A stretch of 64,000 bases of DNA, taken from positions 152,307 through 216,306 of the forward strand of contig MCGO01000070.1 of the NCBI GenBank assembly GCA_002104985.1. Direction: 5' to 3'. This document shows, piece by piece, positions 2,260 to 29,200 of the stretch. Position numbers and translations under genes: made by a program. The number at the start of each line of letters is the position of its first letter. Positions within the stretch are counted from its first letter, which is position 1. The DNA is from Rhizoclosmatium globosum. Taxonomy: Eukaryota > Chytridiomycota > Chytridiomycetes > Chytridiales > Chytriomycetaceae. The notes below the pieces were generated by a model. It saw nothing but the letters and a program-made list of their open reading frames with translations. It made no database searches and was not told the DNA's origin.

Positions 2260-3885
2260 ATGACGTTCAGCGCGTTCCTCTCTGACCACGGCATCAGCAC
2301 GTTGCGAGTCGAGCACCGGGTCTCTCAGGGCAAAGGCAGCGGACTCTTTGCGTCGACTGATCTGTTGCCTGGGACCGAAGTGGTTTCCGTTCCAACCACG
2401 GCGCTGCTCGGATCTGCGGCGGCCAATCAGATTGCAGCTCGAGTGGCAGCATCTGGGCTTTGTATTAATAGCGACAAAGAAAGAAGCGAAAGAAGCGAAC
2501 GAGCAGCAATTGTGTCGGCACTGTTGGTTCTGCGCTTTGGCGGTGGAGTTGGAGTTGGAGTTGGAACAAGTGGTGGTTTCAATGGATTCGCTGAATACGC
2601 GGCTGAACTGCCGCCGCCCGAATCACTCGACTCGCCCGTCTTTTTCAATGTGAAGGAACGCGCGCTGCTCGTCGGCACTGGCCTGGATGTCGCAACGGAT
2701 GCGAAGCTGGGTGCCCTGCAGAGAGAGTACTTTGCCCTACGAGACGACTTGATGCGATTTGATCCACTGTACTCGGAGGCGATGCATCTGGACGAGGATG
2801 AGGAACTGCCGCTTTTGAACTTTGAAGCTTTTCTGTGGGCTGATGCAATCTTTTGGTATGTTGCGTTGCGTCTTTGATGTCATAATATTCTACAGTGGGA
2901 GGCATCGAATGAAAGAAGGTGGTGTGGATGCAAGAATGGGCGAGAGAGAATCAAGTTGGGCAATCCACTCACACACCAACACTACAGGTCCCGTGTCATT
3001 TCCTTCAAATCAGCGGCCACAGACAATACTTCAGACGAAAAAGCTCCAGACTATCATATGGTTCCTTTTATTGACTTTGCGAACCACTCAGAAACTCCTG
3101 AAATGGCCTGGCGCCTCACACCCTCCGGAATCTCACTTGTAATTACCTCTGAAACCACAGTCAAGAAAGGTTCTGAGCTTCATATCTCGTATGGCTCGAA
3201 ACCAAATGCCGAACTACTCTTTATTCATGGATTCACTATTCCCAACAACAAGAACGACTCTATTGCATTTCAACCTCAGATCATGGAAGCTTTTGGTGAA
3301 ACTGAAGAAGAGTTTTTGATCCTTCAACAGAAAAAAGAATTGATCCAATCCCTTTCGCTTCCCTCTCAACTCCTTCTCCTCCCAGCAAACACGTCCCTCG
3401 CACCCCAATCTTCATCCACCTCTTCTGCGAATCCAATTTCGCAAATTCTCTCAAAATTCCAACACATCATCTCCAAAGACTCTCTTCTCCTCCTCCTCAT
3501 TTCAGTCACATCTCCATCAGATATCCCCACAACAAATTTCCTCACAATCACATCCTCATCGGACGCGTTATGGGACATATATCTCTCATCCCAACTCTTT
3601 CCCATCCTCCTACTCCGTGCAACATCAGTTCTTCTTTCACAAGTTCAAGAACGCGCTGCAGAATTGTCTCAGTCAGAGCCTGAAGAAGAGACCAACGAGG
3701 ACGACAAAGACGAGGAAGAAGAAGGAGAAGAAGTGAATCCTCAGCGGTTGTATTTCATCAATATACTTCGGGAAGGACATTATGAGATTCTTGGAGCTGC
3801 TTTGGATGTGTTGGAGGGGTTACAGAAGGAGTATGCGGAAATGGATGTTGTTGTGCGTTATTTGGCGGAAATGAGTGTTGAGTGA
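2260..3885 (+). CDS. SET-domain lysine methyltransferase (RKM/SETD6-like)
   Basis: Two exons, 2260-2855 and 2988-3885, joined by a 132-nt intron with a GTATGT donor, give about 497 residues. The SET fold is recognisable from GLFA near residue 29, the exon-junction segment FWSRVISF, DFANHS at residues 228-233 (the NH motif that binds S-adenosylmethionine) and ISYG at 265-268. This spacing, with a helical C-terminal substrate-binding region after the SET core, is that of the RKM/SETD6/Rubisco-methyltransferase class. These enzymes methylate lysines on ribosomal and other non-histone proteins. A glutamate-rich segment lies near residue 430. The exact substrate cannot be read from sequence. It sits 167 bp after gene A on the same strand. 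Confidence 0.85.
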
Positions 3886-4131
3886 TGGAGAGATAATGTA
3901 TCTGTGAACGAGAATGTCAATAAAAGCATTGAAAATTACTTTTGGAATGTAAAATTGTCATGGTTCTTGAATGAATTGGAAGAGCCATCAGAAATACCTT
4001 CTCCACAAAATACTTTCCAAAAACTAACTTGTTTTCAAGAGCTTTGTATTAGGTCTACCTAACTCCTTTATTTTGATAAAATCATTTTGATAAGTGTACT
4101 ATATATTCCCAGGATTGGTTTAATCTACATC

Positions 4132-6660
4132 TCACTTCTGGCAAGGAGTTCCATTGTGGGTCTTGGTCTTACCAGCCTTAAGGTAGTAGGCACAGTCATA
4201 ATCATCCCACGAAGATCCAGGGTAACAGTACCAGTCACCCTTAACAACGTCTGTAGGATTGAGAAGCCAGTTCTTTGGGTTGACTTCAGCAAAAACAAGG
4301 AACGCGGCAAGCAACGAAACAAATCCAGCAGCTCCATCAAAAGCAGCTCCAATAACATACAAGTACTTTTGGTAAAACTCCTTGTTTCTCTTGAAAAGGT
4401 ACTGCGCCACAAAGGTGAGAATCAAGGGAACGACAATCAAAACTTGAGGAACACCTGCTCCTCCGAGGTTGAAGAAGATGGAGAAGTTGATGTAGTGCCA
4501 GTACTTTGACTTGTGGATGTATTTGTTGGCCAACCATGGGAGCAACGGGGACGCGAACCCAATAAGGAAACACCACAAGAGGCCTTCGTATAGAGATCCG
4601 ATACCGAAAAAGCGCTGTGGACCAATGGCTCCCCAGATACCTCCAGCCGAGTAGAAAGTTTGGTGTCCGTTGTATTGCCTGAAATGGTTTGTAAAAAATA
4701 TTCAATAGAGCTGTTACAACCGGAAAAAGTGCTCACCATTCATCCTTCTTGAGCAAATCTCTGGAACTGAAGATCATAAAGTAACATGCGATAGTGGATA
4801 CGATAGCGTTCAAGAAAGTTCCCCAGAATTGAGCGAAAACCATAGCGTATGGCGGAATGTGAAGGTATTGTCCAAGCTTCAAGTCCTGAGTCAAGGTAAG
4901 AGCCTGGGCCAAGCTGTTGGTTCCCCAAGACTTAAAGGCCATGACCGCAACAGTCTGTCCGGGAATCATCAATCCAATAACAAACTCGGTCAACACATTC
5001 AAAAACAGGTAGAATCCGGAGACAGCAGGAACAATTCCGAATGGCAAGATGAAAATGGCACACAAGAAGATGTTGAAGAAGATACCCCACCAAGGCATAT
5101 TGAATGGAGTGAAGATGGAAACCAAAAGCGCACCAACGGTAGTAACAGCAAGGAAGGCGAGGTAGGCCCAGTCAGGAACATCTGGGTATGCTTCCATCAA
5201 CTTCACATGCTTATCAAGAGAATCAACTTCGTCGCGGACTTGACGGAACGCGTTCATAGCTTGACGGTAGATATCCTTTCCAAACCACAAACCAACGTGA
5301 GAAATTGCAGCGGTGATGGTCAAGAAGGAGCAACCGTACACCAAAGCAAAGTAGGATGTAAGATGGACTGGGGCAACGTCGTTGTAGGCGGTGATATTCA
5401 AGTCATAGTTTTTGGTGGCGTCAAAGAAGTAGTTTGGCTTGACGCGAGATCCTTGTTTCTTGGTTCCGTTCTTGTTACCAACAAACAAATGTGGTGTGTT
5501 GAGCAAAGGGTTTCCATTCACAGTGTCCTTGGTGATCACTTGGTTGAGTCCCCAGACATCATTCGCGTAGAGGAGTGGGACAAAGACCCATTGGAACAGA
5601 ATTGTACCACTGAAGTTGACAATTAAAGCCCAGAAGGGGTTGTTGAAAACGTAGGAACCAACATAGTTCCAGTCGAAAGTGATGCCCAAGAGTCCAACAC
5701 CGTTGCTGATTGGAATTAATTAGAGCTTTAGAATAGGATGTGGTTGAAATGAAATAACTTACTAAACCGAACCAGCAACTACGTTGAATTGAGTTAATTT
5801 TCCACCGGTTCCGTCACCACGACCTCCAATCAAGCAAAGAAGAGAAATTGCTTGCAAAGTTTGCGCAAAATACTGTGGAATCCAGGTCCAAATGAACATG
5901 GCAGCAAAAGCAATCCAGAACATCTTGAAACGTGAAGCAGTGTACTTTTGGACGGATGCATCAATTCCACCAGTTTCGACTTTGTGGAAAGAGGTGAACA
6001 GAGCAATCATAGGCAAGTTTCCAGGCCACCACATTGCAGTTGGACGAACCAAGAAACGACGAGTGAGACCGGACAACCCATAACCCAAAAACTGAGTAAC
6101 AAACACAAAAGAAATCGAATGGAGGAATGTAATGTCCGTGTTTCCCATCAGCTCAGGCATCACTTGAGACACAACGTTCTCAATTCCGTATGGAATACCA
6201 CCACAAGAAGCCTGGATGTAGATCAGGACGTGTTCCTTCACAGTGAATGGACCTGGATTCAACCATGGAATTGAAGTTGGCAAGACGGCAGCCAAGAAGA
6301 GGCCCATTGGATAAGAGAGAATCAAGGCAATGTTGGGGCCGATACCAAAAGCAACGGTACGGAAAGACAGAACCGTATTGGCGAACGATAAGGCAACGAC
6401 CCAGAGTGAGCCAAGCAATACTGCGCGGAAGGTGAACGCTGGAGTCGATGGGTCATCCGTTTGTGGAACGATGAAGTCACTACATGATCAAAACACAATC
6501 AGAATCTCAGTAAAACAACCGTGCAAGCAACTCACATTCTTTCTTCGACCTCCTTGATGTCAGAGATTTCGACATCGTCTTCAAGTTCAGGATGATCAAG
6601 CTTGAGATCCTCGAGTTGGTGTTCCTTTTCAGCAACAAGGTCAGCTGTTGTCTTGGACAT
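4132..6660 (-). CDS. OPT-family oligopeptide transporter
   Basis: Four exons on the minus strand (6536-6660, 5763-6479, 4737-5705, 4132-4678) give about 785 residues, the normal size for fungal OPT transporters. Three introns of 56-58 nt have GTGAGT or GTAAGT donors. The N-terminal 45 residues are acidic and cytosolic, and many hydrophobic segments follow. Diagnostic OPT motifs are NPGPF near residue 115 and the C-terminal block YNGHQTFYSAGG followed by IWGAIGPQRFFG. The family imports tetra- and pentapeptides, and sometimes glutathione or siderophores, by proton symport at the plasma membrane. It is convergent with the SET gene. The intron-spliced junctions restore continuous OPT homology, so the model is firm. 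Substrate is not predictable. Confidence 0.92.
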
Positions 6661-7186: not shown

Positions 7187-7957
7187 TTGCGAGAATGTGA
7201 ATTTTCAGTGGGTGGCATTCTGACCGCACAGCCACATTGCTTAATTGATGAAGAGATGGGGAAAAGGGTATTGCCATCAAAAATTGCAACAGAGCACATC
7301 CATTTTCTCAAAATGTCCACCCTCCCTCCAGCATGGTCTTTGATACGCGCATCCATTCAAAACAATGGCCCTACAATGCCGTCTCTACAAGAACAGCTGA
7401 CAAGTCATAACGAGCGATATCGGAGGTTGGAATCAAAGGCTTATCTACACCAAAGCACATCATCTCCAATACCCACCATATTATCTTTATCCAATTCGCC
7501 TGACACAGTACCAATCTATGTTGCTGAAATTGGCTCGGCTACAGTCGTACAAGTGATGCGGTTACCCCAAGCACATTTTGCTCGAGTCAGCGGCATCCCG
7601 AACCACATCAATGCAGGATATTTTCAGCCACTCAAGCTCCACAATCCAGAGTATTTCGAACAAAGACAGCCCAATAGTCTTCCCATTCCCCCAATTATCC
7701 CGTCATCAAAAAAAAGGCCTTACCCTCCTCCGAAACGTTTGGAGAAGGTCCTGCCTATTACCCCAATAACCCAAGCTACAGAACACAACTGTGATAGGTG
7801 CTCTAAAACGTTTACAAGAGTATACGACTTGCTGCGTCACAAAAAAACACAACACTCACACATCAGTTCAAAACCACAGTATGAATGCAAGCAATGTGGA
7901 ACCAATTTTAGTCGCTCAGATTCATTGAAGCGCCATCTTCGTCACTATCGCCACTGA
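7187..7957 (+). CDS. C2H2 zinc-finger protein, two C-terminal fingers
   Basis: A single exon encodes up to 256 residues. Two adjacent C2H2 fingers close the protein: the first begins CDRCSKTF near residue 202 and ends HKKTQH, and the second begins CKQCGTNF near residue 233 and ends in closely spaced histidines. A pair of fingers at the extreme C-terminus after a Pro/Ser-rich, disordered region is a common fungal transcription-factor layout, so sequence-specific DNA binding is likely. The second in-frame ATG at 7313 is an equally good start and would remove 42 residues. The end of this gene, with its 3' flank, is duplicated in decayed form at 8941-9126. Confidence 0.75.
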   Translation: MRECEFSVGGILTAQPHCLIDEEMGKRVLPSKIATEHIHFLKMSTLPPAWSLIRASIQNNGPTMPSLQEQLTSHNERYRRLESKAYLHQSTSSPIPTILSLSNSPDTVPIYVAEIGSATVVQVMRLPQAHFARVSGIPNHINAGYFQPLKLHNPEYFEQRQPNSLPIPPIIPSSKKRPYPPPKRLEKVLPITPITQATEHNCDRCSKTFTRVYDLLRHKKTQHSHISSKPQYECKQCGTNFSRSDSLKRHLRHYRH

Positions 7958-8129
7958 CTGAAAAATAAATTTTAAACTGTGTTTATTGTATACTCATGAC
8001 TTCCAATCGTAAATGAGCAAATTACATTTTAGAATCACATATCATTACCCATCTTTACAAGAGAACGAGAAACTATAATTCATTTACGTCAAAAGTGGGA
8101 CTGTTAACCAAAACTCTATCTTAGCGCTC

Positions 8130-18330: not shown

Positions 18331-18779
18331 AGCAAGCAGTGACACGAACAGCAGAGAACTACACGCCTTTACTTGTGCATAGATAAGGGTAGAACGGATA
18401 GTGTCTGATGATGAAGATCCATTCGTGTCATGATTTGTTCTTTTCAATCTTGTCTTTATTTCTTAAGGGTACATTAACGAACATGATCAGTGTAGAAGCG
18501 GTAGCGGGCCTGTACTATTATTGAGTGTCGGATCGAGAAACGGAAATGCTGCGCTTTGGGCACCCGTGGTGTGCCGCCTTGCCCGTCTCGATCTCATTTA
18601 GCAACAAAAATCCGGAACAATCCAAATCTTATTTATACCTGGCAAGCTTCGCGTGCACCGAGGAGTTGTTAAAGGTGGCAGGTCTCTATGTCACATGTGA
18701 AGTGGTGCCTCTCACTCAAATTTTTGCAGTTGATCACGTCTCATCACCTGATCTCAGGTTCTAAGCCAGCTTGAATCGA

Positions 18780-18787
18780 TATAAATA
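18780..18787 (+). promoter_or_regulatory. TATA box of the chitinase gene
   Basis: TATAAATA lies 47 bp before the chitinase ATG. This is one of the few clean TATA elements in the window and suits a strongly, conditionally expressed secreted enzyme. Confidence 0.55.
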
Positions 18788-18833
18788 CCACGTTCTCGCC
18801 GTCTCCTTTACAGCATTAATCAACAACTCTCCT

Positions 18834-20821
18834 ATGAAGCTCACTCTCATCGCCGCAACTCTTGTTGCTGTTTCTCAAGCCCAGACTGCTTGTGCCCCAC
18901 CATATGACTCTACTAAGACTTATCTTAAGGGAGACGTTGCCAGCGTTAACGGAGTCAACTACGTCGCCAACTGGTGGTCTCAAAACAATGATCCAACTGC
19001 CAACTCCGGTTCTTGGGGGCAGTGGACCAACCAAGGCCCTTGTGGATCCGGACCAGCCACAACCACCGCTGCTGCCGTCAAAACCACTACTACCACTATT
19101 GCTCCTGTTAAAACTACCACTGCGGCCGTTGTTCAAACTACCACCGCCGCCCAGGTCAAGACCACAACCACCGCTGCCCCTGTTACTACCACTGCCAACG
19201 TTGTGACTACTACTCAAGCGTCCAGCAACGTCGCGTGTTACCCCAACTGGACTGCCACTCCATTTGGTGCGGGTCAGATTCCATACAACACGGGAGACCT
19301 TGTTTCTTACAATGGCCAGAACTGGGTTGTCGGGTACCAAGGTGCTGCTGGACCACCGAACGCTGCTCCAGGTGCAGGTTGGACTCTCCAGGGACCATGT
19401 AACGGTTCCTTCCAGCACAAGCCATACACTACTCCAGGTGTTATCGGTTACTGGACTCAATGGTCCATGTACTCTCGTCGTCAGAATGCCATCGATAAGT
19501 TGGACTTGAGTGGATTCACTGGAATCAACTACGCGTTCGGTGAGTTTCCTTTTTTTTTGGATAATTGAGAATTCTTAACTTATTCTTGACAGTCAACGCG
19601 CTCGCCGATGGTTCCTTGCAGACTTTTGACTCCAACGCTGATCTCAACTACATGAGAAAGTTCACTGCCCTTCGTTACAAGTACCCCAACTTGAAGCCAA
19701 TCATCTCTATTGGCGGCTGGTCTGGTTCTCGTTACTTCTCTACCATCGCCAAGTCTGCCGCAACCATCCAGACTTTCGTCAAGAACGTTCACACCTTCTT
19801 GGACACTGAAGGTTTCGATGGTGTTGACATTGACTGGGAGGTGTGTAAACCGTCAAAACAAAAAAGTGATTCATTAACTGGCTACTTAATTAGTACCCTG
19901 GAGGTGGAGGTCTCGACTGTAACGCGGTCGACCCAGCGGATGTTTCCAACTTTGTAAACCTCCTTGCTGCACTCCGTGCCGAGCTCGGCCCCACTCGTAC
20001 CATTTCTTTGGCTGTCTCTGCCGAAGTCAATCGTTACGTTGACGGCAACACCAAGGTCAACCGTATTCCAGACATTCTCAAGTATGTTTCGTACATCCAG
20101 ATCATGTCTTACGACTTCTACGGATCCTGGAACTCTTACTCTGACTTTGTAAGTACTATAAAAACGCGTCAAGATTAGTATTAACATCACATAGAACTCG
20201 CCATTGTTTTCTCCAAGAAACGGTACTAGCGACCCAGTCGAGCCACCTGCCAACAGCGCCGGATACAGTCAGCCACTCTCTATCTCTGCCGCTGTCAACG
20301 CTTGGATTGCTGCCGGTGCCAAGCCATCTCAGCTTACCAGTGGTCTCGCCTTCTACGGTCGTTCCTGGTCAGTCACCTCCAACGTCAACAATGGCCTCTA
20401 CCAGCCTTGCAAGGCTGCTGATGGAAACACTGGATGTGGAGTTATTGGAGACTACCTTGATGCTGCCAAGTGGAAGGATCCATGCGGTGGAGAATACAAC
20501 TCTGGTGTCTGGATGTACAACAACTTGCGTGGAGCTACCAACACCAACGGTCAGCAAGCTGCTGCTCCTCTTGCTTCTGGTGCTACTACTGGCTCGAACG
20601 GATGGACTCGTCAGTACTTTGACTTTGCTCAAAACCCTACCGTCTATTCCCCAAGCTACTTGAACAGACCAACTATTGTCTCTTACGACGACCCAGTTTC
20701 CATCAAGGCTAAGGCTCAGTGGTCCAAGAATGCTGGTCTCGGAGGAGTTATGATCTGGGAGTTGTCTCAGGACTACAACCTTGAGTTGATCACTGCTACC
20801 AAGGCCGGATGGGGCATCTAA
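18834..20821 (+). CDS. Secreted GH18 chitinase with two CBM5/12-type modules
   Basis: Four exons (18834-19539, 19593-19840, 19894-20148, 20195-20821) give 611 residues. The start at 18834 was chosen over an in-frame Met at 18771 because it exposes a classic signal peptide (residues 1-17, ending SQAQ). A chitin-binding CBM5/12-like module with the AxWW-type motif ANWWSQ occupies about residues 18-70. A Thr/Ala/Val-rich, probably O-glycosylated linker follows to about 130. A second, more diverged CBM-like module spans 134-189, and a GH18 barrel starts near 201. The catalytic signature DGVDIDWE is at 311-318, with E318 the acid/base, and SIGGW is present. It should hydrolyse chitin outside the cell or in wall remodelling. 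The late barrel motif MSYDFYG is intact. Confidence 0.95.
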
Positions 20822-21984
20822 ACAAATCTCCTGAGCTATTTTGTTTTTGCTTACCTAGTTACTTTTCGAATATTCGTGATTTCTCTATGAACCCAATAAA
20901 TGACGCTGTTCATCTAGCATCGTTGGTGTGTGTAATCCATTACTCGTGATACGTAGACCAATGAAAATGAGTAATTACGAAAAGGAAATTACGAGGCGAC
21001 GCCTTAGCGTTAGATTGTTCGAAATAAATTGGGTTCTTGCCATGGCTTTCTGCCACTTAATTTTGTTTTGGTTTTTCGTTTGAAACCCCTCATTATTCAA
21101 CAACCCATAAGCCCAGTACTGATGCCAAACTAGCTTTCTTATATCAAAATTAAAAGTCACTTATTAATCCATGCTCAAACCAAAAATATCTGCTTATCCA
21201 AACCCCTCACCTTTAATACAATTTCCCCACCTTATTTCGTATCTGATACTTGGACTTCTCCAAACAGATTCACCTTCTACAGTAAGTTTTTGAGTACCTC
21301 ATTTTCGATCTGATTTTTATTAACCTATGCTTGCGCAGACTTGATTTCGACGGCACCAAATTCCGTTTCGTTGAAACGCGAGGACTGAGCCAGACTCTAA
21401 ATAAGATCGTTTTGGTACGAAATGCATTTGCGCATTCGTCATCAAGAGGGCTGACGGACGCCGCTGTATCGAGTTCGATCAAGTATGGAGGGGAGTTTTT
21501 GAATGTACTTGGGGCTGGTTTTGTCTTGCTTCAAGAGTTTGGAGATCTGAAAAGGCGATTCCAAGATATTGAATGACATGGAGTTTGCGCGAGGACAGAT
21601 TTTTCCAAAATGAAAAAATCATCAGTCTATTAGGTCAAGCTTTCCATTGCCATGGTAATAGTTCTTACCGTGGCTGTCAAATAGGTTTTATGTGGCGTAG
21701 GTGTTCAATAAGCTACTGACACAGCTTGCATCCTAATCTTTCAATGACACGCAAAGCTTGAGCAATTTTCTCAGAGCTCTCATGATTGTCTTACATTGTG
21801 TTTGATGTAAGACAAGTGTGAGAACCCTCATAAAACCGTGTCATTCTGTCATTCAACCTCGAAGGCCATTGATGATTCCGATTACTACTAAATTATATCA
21901 TATTGAAAGGTTGAAACAAACGTTGATTTTGATTTGTGCAGCCAATTATTGAAGAAGTGCTGGTCATAACTCCCTGTCTCCCAA
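20822..21984. other. Intergenic region after the chitinase
   Basis: About 1.16 kb. Just after the chitinase stop, AATAAATGA near 20893 is a likely poly(A) signal. One exon-like fragment is described separately at 21339-21576. The remainder is AT-rich with no recognised gene. Confidence 0.5.
21339..21576 (+). other. Exon-like fragment with an RNAFAH (Rx4H) motif
   Basis: An open frame of about 79 codons begins directly after a good acceptor (TGCGCAG), and a GTAAGT donor lies about 60 nt upstream at 21280, as in a spliced gene. The translation contains VLVRNAFAHSS, which fits the Rx4H pattern of HEPN-type domains, then a helix-like tail and a stop. No start codon or upstream coding exon could be found. 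It may be a gene remnant or a chance match. Confidence 0.25.
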
Positions 21985-22135
21985 ACTAACGAATACTACC
22001 CTCTGGGATGAGTTGAGGCAATTTCCATCATAATGACTAAATACTTTGCAGCAGCTTCTCTGTCACGAGTAACGACATACACAAAATTACTAATCCATGA
22101 GCATGTTTATTCAAGTGTCATGTTGTAAATAGAAT
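21985..22135. repeat. Outlying unit of the 126-bp repeat
   Basis: One diverged copy of the tandem unit stands apart from the main array. It is followed by about 270 bp of unrelated sequence. It keeps the segment GCAGCAGCTTCTCTGTCACG and TTTATTCAAGTGTCATG. Confidence 0.85.
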
Positions 22136-22404
22136 ATTTATAATACAATCGTGAAGATTGAGTGGACTTGATCGGATCGAGAGGAGCTTGGCTGCTACTC
22201 GAAACGGGAACAGATGGATTTCACATGTGATACGAGGTTGACTGAAAGGAACCAAAGCTCATGGGCTCGGGGACTTTTTGAAACAAAGACTCTTTATTCT
22301 CCGATCGCGAAACCAATAAATAGGTGAAGAAAAATACCAAAACAAAAACTATCTTGAAAAAGAACCTTTCAAACCAACCTCAAGACCTGACTGCGAGTTT
22401 ATAT

Positions 22405-24803
22405 CTCCAACATGTCATACCCTCTGGCATGAGCTGTGGTGCAATCTCCATCATAATGACAGAATGCTTCGCAGCAGCTTCTCTGTCACGAGTAACGACA
22501 TGCACAAAATTACTAATCCATGAATGTGTTTATTCAAGTGTCATGCCCTCTGGCATGAGCTGCGGGGCAATCTCCATCATAATAACAGAATGCTTTGCAG
22601 CAGCTTCTCTGTCACGAGTAACCACATGCACAAAATTACTAATCCATGAATGTGTTTATTCAAGTGTCATGCCCTCTGGCATGAGTTGAGGTGCAATCTC
22701 CATCATAATGACTGAATGCTTTTGTAGTAGCTTCTCTGTCACGAGTAACCACATGCACAAAATTACTAATCCATGAGTGTGTTTATTCAAGTGTCATGCC
22801 CTCTGGCATGAGTTGAGGTGCAATCTCCATCATAATGACTGAATGCTTCGCAGCAGCTTCTCTGTCACGAGTAACGACATGCACAAAATTACTCATCGAT
22901 GAGTGTGTTTATTCAAGTGTCATGCCCTCTGGCATGAGTTGAGGGGCGATTTCCATCATGATGACTAAATACTTTGCAGCAGCTTCTCTGTCACGAGTAA
23001 CGAAATGCACAAAATTACTAATCTGTGAATGTGTTTATTCAAGTGTCATACCCTCTGGCATGAGTTGAGGTGCTGTCTCCATCATAATGACAGAATGCTT
23101 TGCAGCAGCTTCTCTGTCACGAGTAACGACATGCACAAAATTACTAATCTGTGAATGTATTTATTCAAGTGTCATGTCCTGTGGCATGAGATGAGGGGCA
23201 ATATCCATCATGATGACTAAATACTTTGCAGCAGCTTCTCTGTCACGAGTAACCACATGCACAAAATTACTAATCCATGAATGTGTTTATTCAAGTGTCA
23301 TGCCCTCTGGCATGAGCTGCGGGGCAATCTCCATCATAATAACAGAATGCTTTGCAGCAGCTTCTCTGTCACGAGTAACCACATGCACAAAATTACTAAT
23401 CCATGAATGTGTTTATTCAAGTGTCATGCCCTCTGGCATGAGCTGCGGGGCAATCTCCATCATAATAACAGAATGCTTTGCAGCAGCTTCTCTGTCACGA
23501 GTAACCACATGCACAAAATTACTAATCCATGAATGTGTTTATTCAAGTGTCATGCCCTCTGGCATGAGCTGCGGGGCAATCTCCATCATAATAACAGAAT
23601 GCTTTGCAGCAGCTTCTCTGTCACGAGTAACCACATGCACAAAATTACTAATCCATGAATGTGTTTATTCAAGTGTCATGCCCTCTGGCATGAGTTGAGG
23701 TGCAATCTCCATCATAATGACTGAATGCTTCGCAGCAGCTTCTCTGTCACGAGTAACGACATGCACAAAATTACTCATCGATGAGTGTGTTTATTCAAGT
23801 GTCATGCCCTCTGGCATGAGTTGAGGGGCGATTTCCATCATGATGACTAAATACTTTGCAGCAGCTTCTCTGTCACGAGTAACGAAATGCACAAAATTAC
23901 TAATCTGTGAATGTGTTTATTCAAGTGTCATACCCTCTGGCATGAGTTGAGGTGCTGTCTCCATCATAATGACAGAATGCTTTGCAGCAGCTTCTCTGTC
24001 ACGAGTAACGACATGCACAAAATTACTAATCTGTGAATGTATTTATTCAAGTGTCATGTCCTGTGGCATGAGATGAGGGGCAATATCCATCATGATGACT
24101 AAATACTTTGCAGCAGCTTCTCTGTCACGAGTAACCACATGCACAAAATTACTAATCCATGAATGTGTTTATTCAAGTGTCATGCCCTCTGGCATGAGCT
24201 GCGGGGCAATCTCCATCATAATAACAGAATGCTTTGCAGCAGCTTCTCTGTCACGAGTAACCACATGCACAAAATTACTAATCCATGAATGTGTTTATTC
24301 AAGTGTCATGCCCTCTGGCATGAGCTGCGGGGCAATCTCCATCATAATAACAGAATGCTTTGCAGCAGCTTCTCTGTCACGAGTAACCACATGCACAAAA
24401 TTACTAATCCATGAATGTGTTTATTCAAGTGTCATGCCCTCTGGCATGAGCTGCGGGGCAATCTCCATCATAATAACAGAATGCTTTGCAGCAGCTTCTC
24501 TGTCACGAGTAACCACATGCACAAAATTACTAATCCATGAATGTGTTTATTCAAGTGTCATGCCCTCTGGCATGAGCTGCGGGGCAATCTCCATCATAAT
24601 AACAGAATGCTTTGCAGCAGCTTCTCTGTCACGAGTAACCACATGCACAAAATTACTAATCTGTGAATGTGTTTATTCAAGTGTCATGTCCTCTGGCATG
24701 AGTTGAGGTGCAATCTCCATCATAATAACAGAATGCTTTGCTGCAGCTTCTCTCTCACGAGTAAACAAGGATACATTCACAAAAATACTAATCCATGAAT
24801 GTG
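22405..24803. repeat. 126-bp tandem array made from the DJ-1 gene tail (about 19 units)
   Basis: The motif GCAGCTTCTCTGTCACGAG recurs every 126 bp from about 22470 to 24740. Read on the minus strand, each unit carries codons for EAAAKHSVIM-EI-PQLMPEGMTLE, a TAA stop inside an AATAAA signal, and about 40 nt of downstream sequence. This is the same material as the end of the adjacent DJ-1 gene. Subtypes alternate: a block of seven units (882 bp) around 22900-23780 is repeated at 23790-24660, a higher-order repeat. Because 126 is divisible by three, long plus-strand frames appear, but they lack gene features. Confidence 0.95.
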
Positions 24804-24809
24804 TTTATT
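24804..24809 (-). terminator. Poly(A) signal overlapping the DJ-1 stop codon
   Basis: On the minus strand the gene ends CTTGAATAAACAC, so the TAA stop at 24805-24807 is part of AATAAA. The same fused stop/poly(A) motif is repeated in nearly every unit of the adjoining array. Confidence 0.5.
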
Positions 24810-26253
24810 CAAGTGTCATGCCCTCTGGCATAAGTTGAGGTGCAATTTCCATCATAATGACTGAATGCTTTGCAGCAGCTTCTCCAGCCACTTCTTGCAC
24901 AATTTCTAGAGCTGCTGTGACACCACATAATCCTGATTCAGCCACAAGGACCCGATCCACGCGACCCCAACCCGGATGCGACCTACTATGAGTCCTGATA
25001 CTTTGATCCAAAGCCCGAATCAAAGGCTTTTTGAGAGCCTTTTCGAGTGCAGCAATGACGGACCGACCTGAAACAAGAATGCGCGAGTCACTGTCAGGGC
25101 GGGAAGCAAAATCAAAGAGCTGCAGTTCCTCAAAGACATTTTTTGCAGCGATAGAGTCAATGTGAGTTGAATTTGGAATGTAAATGATGCGAGGACGGCC
25201 TTCGGTGTTTGGAAAGAAGGATTCGGGGGCAGTTGAGTCGGTGATTTCACGGTCACAGACGACACGGAGTGCAGACGAGTAAGAAGAGTTGGAAGATGTA
25301 GAGTCGCCACCGATTTGAATGATGAGGTTGGATTGTTCTGTGGATACGGGTGCAGGGTTGACTGCAATCAGTTCGAATTTGTGGGATTTGCTGAGGGGGA
25401 GGAGGGATTCGAGGACGCCTGCAAGATCAAGGGTGTCAAAGTGGGGGAAGAGAAGGATGGACAGGTCTGCATCTTTTGAGGATGCTGATGCGGGTTTCTC
25501 TGTTTCGAGAGGGACTAGGTATGGGGCCAAGAGGGAGAGACCCAGGCAGTGCAAGTACCCAAACCAAGACGAAGGACGAGGGTGTATTTTCGCGAATGGA
25601 TCGTGAGCATTTCCAAGTGGAGTGTAGAATGTTTGTTTCGCAACCTTGTCCGCAATCGCCTTCCCAAACAACTTTTCGCCAAGCACAAAAGCCATATCAA
25701 GCCCAGCCGAGACACCTGAGGCGGTAACAAACTTTCCGTCTTCGACAAAGCGCGCGTCGTGGATGTAGTCAACATTTGAGCCGTACGCAGCCATCGGGCC
25801 GAACCAGGCCTTGTTTGAAGTGGCGCGGCGGCCGTCGAGCAGACCGGCGGCAGCGAGGATGCTTGAGCCTGAGCAGACCGAGGCCACGAGAGTCGCTGTG
25901 TGAGCGACTTCTTCCACAAAGTCGAGAAGCGCCGTGTCTTTCGCCGCGACAAACGAGCCGATTCCGCCTGGAACCACGAGCACGTCAAGTGGCGGACACG
26001 TGGCGTACGAGTGGTGCGCAACAACGGGCTGGTGCGCGGTGCTCTCCACACTGCCGCCCTCAACTGGTCCCACCGTCACAAACTCGACTTGTTGTTGAGA
26101 GTGACTTGCCATCTTTAAAAGCACTGACATCGGACCCTGCACATCAAGCAGTTCCCAGCCGTAGTAGTACAGCCCTCCAATCAAAAGAGGTCGCGATGTC
26201 ATTGAAATGTCTTCTTTTGGAAAGTTGTTCCATCCACTTTTTCCTCCAGCCAA
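24805..26253 (-). CDS. Tandem DJ-1/PfpI-domain protein
   Basis: One exon encodes 482 residues, about twice the size of a single DJ-1 domain. The N-terminal half (about 20-230) is a DJ-1/PfpI domain of the isonitrile-hydratase-like type: VVPGG near 93-97, the nucleophile elbow SVCSGS with Cys127, and AAGLLDGRRATSNK after it. The C-terminal half starts again with ILLFPHFDTLDLAG and ends with GLCGVTAALEIVQEVAGE, typical of the last helix of this fold, but its elbow cysteine is not evident. The second domain looks like a degenerate duplicate. Substrate is unknown; amidase, hydratase or glyoxalase roles exist in the family. Met18 is an alternative start. No introns are seen, in contrast to most neighbours. 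Confidence 0.85.
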   Translation of the reverse strand: MAGGKSGWNNFPKEDISMTSRPLLIGGLYYYGWELLDVQGPMSVLLKMASHSQQQVEFVTVGPVEGGSVESTAHQPVVAHHSYATCPPLDVLVVPGGIGSFVAAKDTALLDFVEEVAHTATLVASVCSGSSILAAAGLLDGRRATSNKAWFGPMAAYGSNVDYIHDARFVEDGKFVTASGVSAGLDMAFVLGEKLFGKAIADKVAKQTFYTPLGNAHDPFAKIHPRPSSWFGYLHCLGLSLLAPYLVPLETEKPASASSKDADLSILLFPHFDTLDLAGVLESLLPLSKSHKFELIAVNPAPVSTEQSNLIIQIGGDSTSSNSSYSSALRVVCDREITDSTAPESFFPNTEGRPRIIYIPNSTHIDSIAAKNVFEELQLFDFASRPDSDSRILVSGRSVIAALEKALKKPLIRALDQSIRTHSRSHPGWGRVDRVLVAESGLCGVTAALEIVQEVAGEAAAKHSVIMMEIAPQLMPEGMTLE

Positions 26254-26286: not shown

Positions 26287-29200
26287 ATGGCACTGCTGAG
26301 GATACGGATCATTGTTCTGGTGCTCGTGCTAGTGCTGAGTGTGTCGGTAGTGCATTCGCAGGAGGCCGTTGAACTCGAGAGAGAGAGTGACGGTCAAGGT
26401 GCGTCTCTCCTAATCCTTTGAATCCAATGCAACGTTAATCGAATCGCATCCACACCAAAGTTCTCTTCCGCTTTGGCCACCTTCTCCTCCGCCAAATCAC
26501 CCACCCAAACCACCCAAACCACCCAAACCACCTTCAACGACCGCCTCAGGAACAGAACTCCGCAAACGACGCCGCTGCGAACCTTCTCTCGCTCGTGTTC
26601 CGCGTCGCTGGTTTCGATGTCGATGCAGACTCAGACGCTGAAAAGGACTCGGCGAAGCAGGAGAAGTTGAGCCAGGCGGACGCCCTCGATCAACTCGAAA
26701 AGAATCTTGTCGTGGCCCGCTTTAAACCACCGCCGAATTCAAACAAGGACATTGTCAGAGAAAAGGCGGTCCAGGCTCTGGATGCGGCTGCGAAAGAATT
26801 TGATAACCAGGATGCTCAGTTGTTGTTGGCAGACATGTTCATGGTGCGTATTGTTTCGTATTCATAACTCAGCTCTCACTAACACGTATGTATTATTATA
26901 GCACTCTCGTTTCTTGCACCCGCGAAACGTGTCTCGTGCCATCGAATATTACTCTCTTCTCTCAACAAATCATGCAAATCCTTTGGCTCAACGTACTCTC
27001 GGGCTCATGTACGCCACGGGTCTCGGCTTCAAACGCGACTATGCTAAAGCTCTGCTCTACCTCTCTTTTGCTGCTCTCCAAAATGATGTCATTGCTCATC
27101 AAACTCTGGCCTACTGGCATTCTATTGGTATTGCCACGCCCAAATCTTGTGACGATGCCGTTTACCATTACAAGGCTGTTGCGAATAAAGGTACGTTCAC
27201 TTTTCAAGCGAGCTGTTTTGGAGTAGTGCTACCCCGAAGCGTGCTTGAAGTGAGCTGTTTCTGGGCGCCACCTTGAAGTGAGCTGTTTCTGAGCGCAGCG
27301 AAGAAAGAGCGAGCGGTAGTACGCGAACGACCGAAAAATTGACTGATGGCGAGGTACGAGACAGAAGGAGATTTGAAGGGAGTGTGGAAACTTAGCGAGC
27401 GAAGCGAGCAAATCAAGAAGTGTGAGCGGAGCGAACGAACTTTTGCGGAGCAAACTGCGTAGCGAGGTCACGAGCGGAGCTCGTTTCCATTACTGCGAAT
27501 AGAGAGGAATAGCTAGCGTAGCGAGCAAGACAAGAAGAGTGTTAGCGTAGCGAACGAACTTTTGCGGAGCAAACTGCGTAGCGAGGTCACGAGCGGAGCT
27601 CGTTTCCATTACTGCGAATAGAGAGGGATAGCGAGCGGAGCGAGCAAATCAAGAAGAGTGTGAGCGTAGCGAACGAACTTTTGCGGAGCAAAATGCGTAG
27701 CGAGGTCACGAGCGGAGCTCGTTTCCATTACTGCGAATAGAGAGGGATAGCGGGCGGAGCGAGCAAATCAAGAAGAGTGTGAGCGTAGCGAACGAACTTT
27801 TGCGGAGCAAAATGCGTAGCGAGGTCACGAGCGGAGCTCGTTTCCATTACTGCGAATAGAGAGGGATAGCGGGCGGAGCGAGCAAATCAAGGAGAGTGTG
27901 AGTGCAGCGAACGACTTTTTGCGAAGCAAACTGCATAGCGAGGTCACGAGCCGAGCTCGTTACCATTATAGCGAAATGTAGTGAGATTGTGAGCGCAGCG
28001 AACGGCTTTTTGCGAAGCAAACTGCGTAGCAAGTCCAGGAGCAGAGCTTGTTACCGTCATAGCGAAATAGAGTGGGATTGCAAATGTAGCAAGAGATCTA
28101 ACCCAATCTGCAGCCATTGAAATGTGGAAGACGGGTCCACCTGGCGGTCTTACCCTCCCACCCACCAAAATCCGTCTCCCAGAATCCCTGGGTGGAATCT
28201 ACGGACCTGGTGCATCCGGTCCAGGCGCACCTTCAAAAGCTCTCCCTCAATCACACGAACATCAAAAGTCTGTGCGCGACATTTTCGAAATCAGTGCACA
28301 AGAAGGCGACCACTCGGTCCAACTCGAACTTGGAAATATTTACTATACGGGAACGCGGCACACAAAGCCTAACCACAAAAAGGCACTTAAATACTTTTTG
28401 TCAGCCGCCAAGGCATATCCGGGAAAGAAGCCAGTGGGTGAAATGAGCCCTACCTTGAAACATAAGGTTGCAATCGCTAGTATGGCGGCAGGTTACTTGG
28501 GTACAATGTATTGGCGAGGGGAGGGTGTTTTACCAGACCCAGAGACAGCAAGACAATGGTTTGAAAGAGGAGAAGAGTTAGGGAACGGTATGAGTCTTAA
28601 TGGTCTTGGTATGATGGTCCTCGAAGGAGTTGCTGGATTTGAAAAGGTATTTTTACATTTTCGCGTTCGATTTGATGGTAGTCCTTACATATCCCAACAA
28701 GGACAAATCCAAAGCCCTCCAATACTTTACAAACGCAATTCAAAAAGACTACCCAGAAGCGTACGTCTCTCTCGCAGAGCTCACACTCCAAATCGGTAGC
28801 CCAGACGCCCTTACTTCCTCCCTCAAATTCTTTTCACAAGCTGCCCAGAAGCCCCCGGCATCTCCTTTGACACTATACCGACTCGCTGAGTTCCACGAAA
28901 AGGGACTTGGCGGAACACCGAAAAACTGTGCAACAGCTCTTGGATTCTATAAATCGCTGGTTGAAAAGGCGGATTGGCACGATAAGAGCCTTCTCCGAGC
29001 GTTTGAACACACAGAACGCGATACACCTGCTGACTGGGAGAGTGCCTTCATTTTGTACCTCTTTGCAGCGGAACGCGGTATTGAAGTTGCGCAAACAAAT
29101 GCAGCGTGGATGATTGACTCAGGATACGTTGGAGGAGTTACACTCAACACTGAGACTGTTGGAGATAGCCCAGCTGCGGGAGAAGTAAAGGAGAAAGACC

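Follow-up and report, generated by a model that had tools for sequence, protein, structure and literature searches.

The window analysed here is a stretch of 64,000 bp from the Rhizoclosmatium globosum genome (within contig MCGO01000070.1, C389 below), in which we found a DJ-1/PfpI gene that ends inside a tandem array. The gene (24805..26202, minus strand) contains 465 codons in one open frame, and its product carried a DJ-1/PfpI domain (Pfam PF01965, 8.6e-21), with isonitrile hydratases as the closest solved relatives. The predicted model of the product had a mean pLDDT of 83.5, and Foldseek returned E values down to 2.4e-18; isocyanide hydratases matched the model over one domain only, and the two-domain plant DJ-1d matched most of its length with an rmsd near 15, indicating that the domains are placed differently. 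On the far side of the array, at 18771-20821 on the plus strand, fragments of a gene for a chitinase (CBM_5_12 and GH18) run toward it. The next gene, which encodes Sel1 repeats, contained a 119-bp minisatellite of about 5 copies (27393-28080), apparently within an unusually long intron (about 27191-28113, judged by eye); this minisatellite was present on both haplotypes (7376-7965 of the sampled stretch L009 in the second) and the two lengths differ.

TRF detected a single strong array in the window, with a period of 126, 19.6 copies, 93% matches and a score of 4076. The main array including the gene tail occupies 22413..24884 on the minus strand, and with the distal end counted in, the array in full is located at 21999-24884. 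Read on the minus strand, the unit is composed of 25 tail codons, a TAA lying within AATAAA and a stretch of some 48 nt that leads to the next unit. The window, which we call haplotype A, contained 20 stop-bearing units and one truncated unit, numbered here from the gene outwards. Their length is 126 bp except for the gene-proximal unit (132 bp) and unit 17 (127 bp; 22610..22736, minus strand), where a one-base insertion shifts the first tail codons. Unit 0 (24805..24882, minus strand) is the gene's own tail, comprising the codons of residues 441-465 and the TAA within AATAAA, and it starts where the last predicted helix of the product (441-451) starts. The first-pass annotation had described the repeat as the last 27 codons of the gene; the tail is indeed repeated, but the part common to the units is slightly shorter, 25 sense codons and a stop (EAAAKHSVIMMEIAPQLMPEGMTLE followed by the stop codon). 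Coding starts in haplotype A were located through the word GCTTCTC alone, which gave 21 units. AATAAA followed in the same uninterrupted unit in 19 of them, lay past an insertion in one, and was missing from one truncated before it, and in those 19 the TAA falls within AATAAA, in agreement with the fusion of stop codon and signal noted at first pass. The sequence CGTGACAGAGAAGC was found at 19 of the 20 unit junctions, and the gene-proximal junction reads CGTGAGAG. The array has the head-to-tail units and the unequal unit number between alleles (20 and 6) that define a minisatellite or VNTR.

About 19 units and a separate outlier at 21985 had been reported at first pass. The array of about 20 units stood, but the outlier turned out to be the array's own distal end (21999..22120, minus strand), consisting of the rest of unit 19 and the truncated unit, as revealed by blastn of the unit and by alignment of the joined flanks. 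Between this end and the main array lies a 292-bp insertion (22121..22412) with TGTTG...CAACA ends, bordered by target-site repeats TGTCA on the left (22116..22120) and on the right (22413..22417). After the flanks were joined, the alignment to the unit series was unbroken save for a 2-base gap. The TG...CA ends and the short (5-bp) target duplication are those of a solo LTR, but a DNA search, and a pattern search for both ends that allowed as many as 3 mismatches, recovered only the insertion itself in the assembly, and with no related LTR or complete element in the genome we describe it as LTR-like only and leave it unclassified. The array of haplotype B lacks this insertion. About 450 bp beside the distal end (21549-21998) did not align to haplotype B and had no other match in the assembly.

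The tail motif of the gene (MEI..., LMPxG) is common to two chytrid relatives. Given that these relatives have C-termini homologous to the tail residues, the unit derives from the gene, as the first-pass annotation had supposed, and the gene's tail does not derive from the unit; the homology of the unit to the DJ-1 tail, whose absence the annotation had named as one refutation, is seen in the array's last unit being the gene's own 3' end. A search of the assembly (56.9 Mb, 420 contigs) gave, among the best candidates, 28 matches to the unit, all on C389 and C376. An Rfam search of the window gave nothing at gathering scores, and no tRNA was found. A reading of the unit as a structured RNA was set aside: the folding z was -1.5 on the minus and -2.9 on the plus strand, and one pair of the main hairpin is lost through a G-to-A change in units A01, A06, A13 and B03 (by eye). 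Read-through of the TAA into a repeat protein was rejected, for the frame is open over 41 codons between stops, yet the downstream half has no synonymous bias in that frame (2:16).

Other arrays were surveyed in twenty 10-kb stretches, which total 200,000 bases or about 0.35% of the assembly, a sample too small to tell whether tail arrays accompany other genes of this genome. With a period of at least 40 and at least 2.5 copies, four arrays (five TRF rows) were detected, and none of the four was a plain gene-tail array, judging by eye from the lists of open reading frames. One had a 199-bp period, with 13.2 copies almost identical in sequence, and lay just upstream of a 484-codon open frame (3517-6138 of stretch L028, contig C95); another was a 293-bp satellite of 14.6 copies reaching the edge of its sampled stretch (5798-10000 of L024, contig C55). 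A separate, unrelated-looking array also had a period of 126 bp (1-534 of L026, contig C75), with 4.2 copies at 100% and open frames on both strands, and was cut by the edge of its stretch.

According to a published comparison (PMC6757388), the R. globosum JEL800 assembly was produced with Falcon and is probably diploid, which is in line with our finding of the gene on two contigs, C389 (the window) and C376, with 99% amino acid identity. For JEL800, mRNA sequencing with mapping to this genome has also been reported (PMC8887899). Another gene, about 31 kb further on, likewise occurs on both contigs. Haplotype B (C376, stretch L009) contained six stop-bearing units, located by the word TTGAATAAA, so that AATAAA is present in them by construction. 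Several are damaged: one has a 4-base insertion and a broken frame (B01), one is cut to 94 bp, and one is fused across a deletion. The two alleles of the gene differ at 11 of 1398 nt, ten of them at third positions, with one amino acid change. Three of the 11 differences are located within the last 78 nt of these 1398 (p=0.020, a post hoc comparison).

A 6-bp indel (GTATCC) in the context GTTTACTCGTGAGA serves as a marker. It was found in the downstream half of unit 0 in haplotype A and in unit 1 in haplotype B, so that B has one border unit more, or A one less. The unit that ends the gene thus seems to differ between the haplotypes, to judge from this marker. The tail half of B01 was nearest to B00 (5 differences), the nearest A unit standing at 7, which fits a duplication of the tail in B and is what would be expected of a displaced tail. 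Beyond the border the unit-by-unit orthology is ambiguous; B02 has GCTGCAGC in common with A01, yet overall it is nearest to A08 and A15. For a possible transfer of cassette sequence into the gene, the observations from the two haplotypes are the shift of the indel marker and the position of three of the 11 allelic differences within the tail.

Higher-order structure was clear in haplotype A. At an offset of 882 bp, 1001 of 1008 positions were identical, with an exact run of 917 bp, and at the remaining seven multiples of 126 up to 1008 the identity was 91-94%. The 20 stop-bearing units represent 11 sequences in the order abccccdefgcccdefhijk. Two seven-unit blocks can be read in this string and in the exact run, cccdefg (units 3-9; 23617..24498, minus strand) and cccdefh (units 10-16; 22734..23616, minus strand), and the order [cccdefg][cccdefh] indicates duplication of a block. 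Both the recurrence of subtypes in blocks of seven (882 bp) and the duplication of a multi-unit block, which had been proposed at first pass, are borne out by these data. The flanks of the array differ between haplotypes by 5.6% over 2,935 columns; set against this, 917 exact bp within the block indicate that its duplication is far more recent than the divergence of the haplotypes.

For the analysis of variation, all stop-bearing units of the two haplotypes (26, of which 17 are distinct) were aligned together. In the unmasked alignment 33 of the 78 positions in the coding part were variable (10, 9 and 14 at codon positions 1, 2 and 3), as were 18 of the 48 in the downstream half. Once three misaligned pieces had been masked, variation was seen at 5, 3 and 13 of the 26 sites of codon positions 1, 2 and 3, respectively, and at 16 of the 48 downstream sites; codon positions 1 and 2 together compared with the downstream half (8/52 vs 16/48) gave no significant difference (p=0.06). 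With each variant counted once, the tail half contained 15 synonymous and 10 replacement changes, where 24.1% synonymous are expected (p=1.4e-4). The excess stays when both gene tails are left out (14:10, p=3.7e-4). Variants shared between units had a synonymous to replacement ratio of 11:4 and singletons one of 4:6; this difference is not significant (p=0.12), and a reading in which old variants are filtered and new ones free is a trend only. In haplotype A, 12 of the 20 units encode the exact tail peptide of the gene, in four nucleotide versions, and in haplotype B one of the six does, the gene's own.

Several explanations of these features were weighed. One holds that the array is a plain neutral minisatellite, its synonymous bias due to accident or mutation pattern. 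The tolerance of damaged units and the near-neutral ratio of the singletons would agree with it, but among 12 frame-and-region tests the bias was significant in only one, that of the gene's frame over the tail half, and when the base changes were relocated at random, each change being kept, a mean of 5.7 was synonymous and 15 was reached in none of 20,000 trials. We therefore regard this explanation as unlikely.

In another, the units would act as successive poly(A) signals and terminators, as also raised at first pass, and would secure the DJ-1 gene at its 3' end, opposite the GH18 gene on the other strand. There is one AATAAA per 126 bp, and the plus-strand chitinase pieces are convergent with the DJ-1 gene. 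The signal overlaps GAA-TAA, however, so that a coding tail alone would keep it, and its presence is no proof of a role at the 3' end; moreover, the downstream half varies freely (16/48 positions) and the two haplotypes differ in unit number (20 and 6). Such a function appears doubtful to us.

The units might also be alternative terminal exons reached by splicing, each supplying a separate stop and poly(A) signal and each selected directly, and the first-pass annotation had suggested that they could serve as alternative terminal cassettes. The sequence CGTGACAG is found before 19 of the 20 units, and the synonymous bias in the tail half would suit such exons. Against this, the gene is one open frame whose sole GTRNGT site does not match the acceptor-like site in phase, and of its 78 GTs the 18 of the right phase include none that fits GTRNGT; the acceptor-like site before unit 1, at the gene-proximal junction, reads CGTGAGAG and lacks CAG; and units A17, B01, B03 and B04 are frameshifted or truncated. 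These observations do not support the cassette proposal; judged from the sequence, splicing into the units is unlikely, and we give little credence to direct selection of the units as exons.

Falcon takes long reads. Its use for this assembly, as stated in the published comparison (PMC6757388), the 11 distinct unit sequences in an ordered series and the different array on the other haplotype make it very improbable that the unit number or the 882-bp block is an artefact, although an exact identity of 917 bp can confuse assembly. Least credible of all is that the conserved thing is a tandem-repeat protein of the plus strand, where open frames of 121, 162 and 204 aa run across units, for the CAA/CAG variants of the tail give TGA/TGC there and stop the frame in many units, and the bias in this best opposite-strand frame, the next best of the 12 tests, was weaker (10:15, p=0.057) with third positions that coincide with those of the gene.

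We consider it reasonably probable that the array is a minisatellite that arose from the end of the DJ-1/PfpI gene, to which it is still attached, and that its units alternate in the role of working tail and are under selection there. A second tail would have been produced by a duplication one of whose borders fell within the gene, and unequal exchange (or slippage) would then have multiplied the units, singly and in blocks. With the last 25 codons of the gene being unit 0, an exchange at the border could hand the tail role to another unit and at the same time push the former tail into the array. The place of unit 0 would be held only by units with a good tail, and displaced tails would be free to decay, as may have happened in B01. 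If units descend from tails that formerly served, their older variation should be mostly synonymous. Such turn-taking would account for the synonymous bias without expression of interior units, and we infer that selection acted through service as the tail, the mechanism and direction of the exchange being likewise drawn from the pattern of the units.

APOB has a VNTR 3' of the gene and CEL one in its last exon, both minisatellites at gene 3' ends. The R. globosum array is similar in having tandem units of tens of bp at a gene end, with a number that varies by allele, but its unit is a complete gene ending, with coding tail, stop, AATAAA and downstream DNA. It shares with partial tandem gene duplications in general a duplication border inside a gene, and differs in its amplification (6 and 20 stop-bearing units) and in the exchange that apparently takes place at the gene border. 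The D4Z4/DUX4 macrosatellite repeats entire reading frames, and its poly(A) signal is not part of the array; there too the position in the array decides which unit makes a usable transcript end, but in R. globosum only the tail of a gene repeats. The first-pass annotation knew of no described satellite that consists of a coding tail and poly(A) signal, and we recognised none in the titles and abstract beginnings of the open-licence literature, which agrees with the statement and is not proof of it.

The vls locus of Borrelia is an array of silent donor cassettes, and bacterial Rhs/CDI genes are accompanied by orphan C-terminal cassettes. As in these systems, partial homologous copies lie beside one complete gene and may supply part of it by recombination; unlike in these systems, where the product is diversified, the R. 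globosum units mostly keep the same peptide, and their variation is not rich in replacements but in synonymous changes (15:10). A bolder possibility is a eukaryotic array that works as a bank of interchangeable gene endings, with units kept translatable through use, either by frequent tail-renewing exchange or by transcripts ending in different units, and thereby maintaining or varying the C-terminus of one protein. We put this forward as a speculation with a small chance of being right.

In this one diploid genome it can be followed how a satellite arose from a gene, how it grew in blocks and how, apparently, its sequence returns to the gene. The array suggests that repeats which are not expressed can bear the signature of purifying selection, and it is a warning that such a signature in repeats is not proof of translation. 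Exchange at the border of a gene could also be directly measured at this locus.
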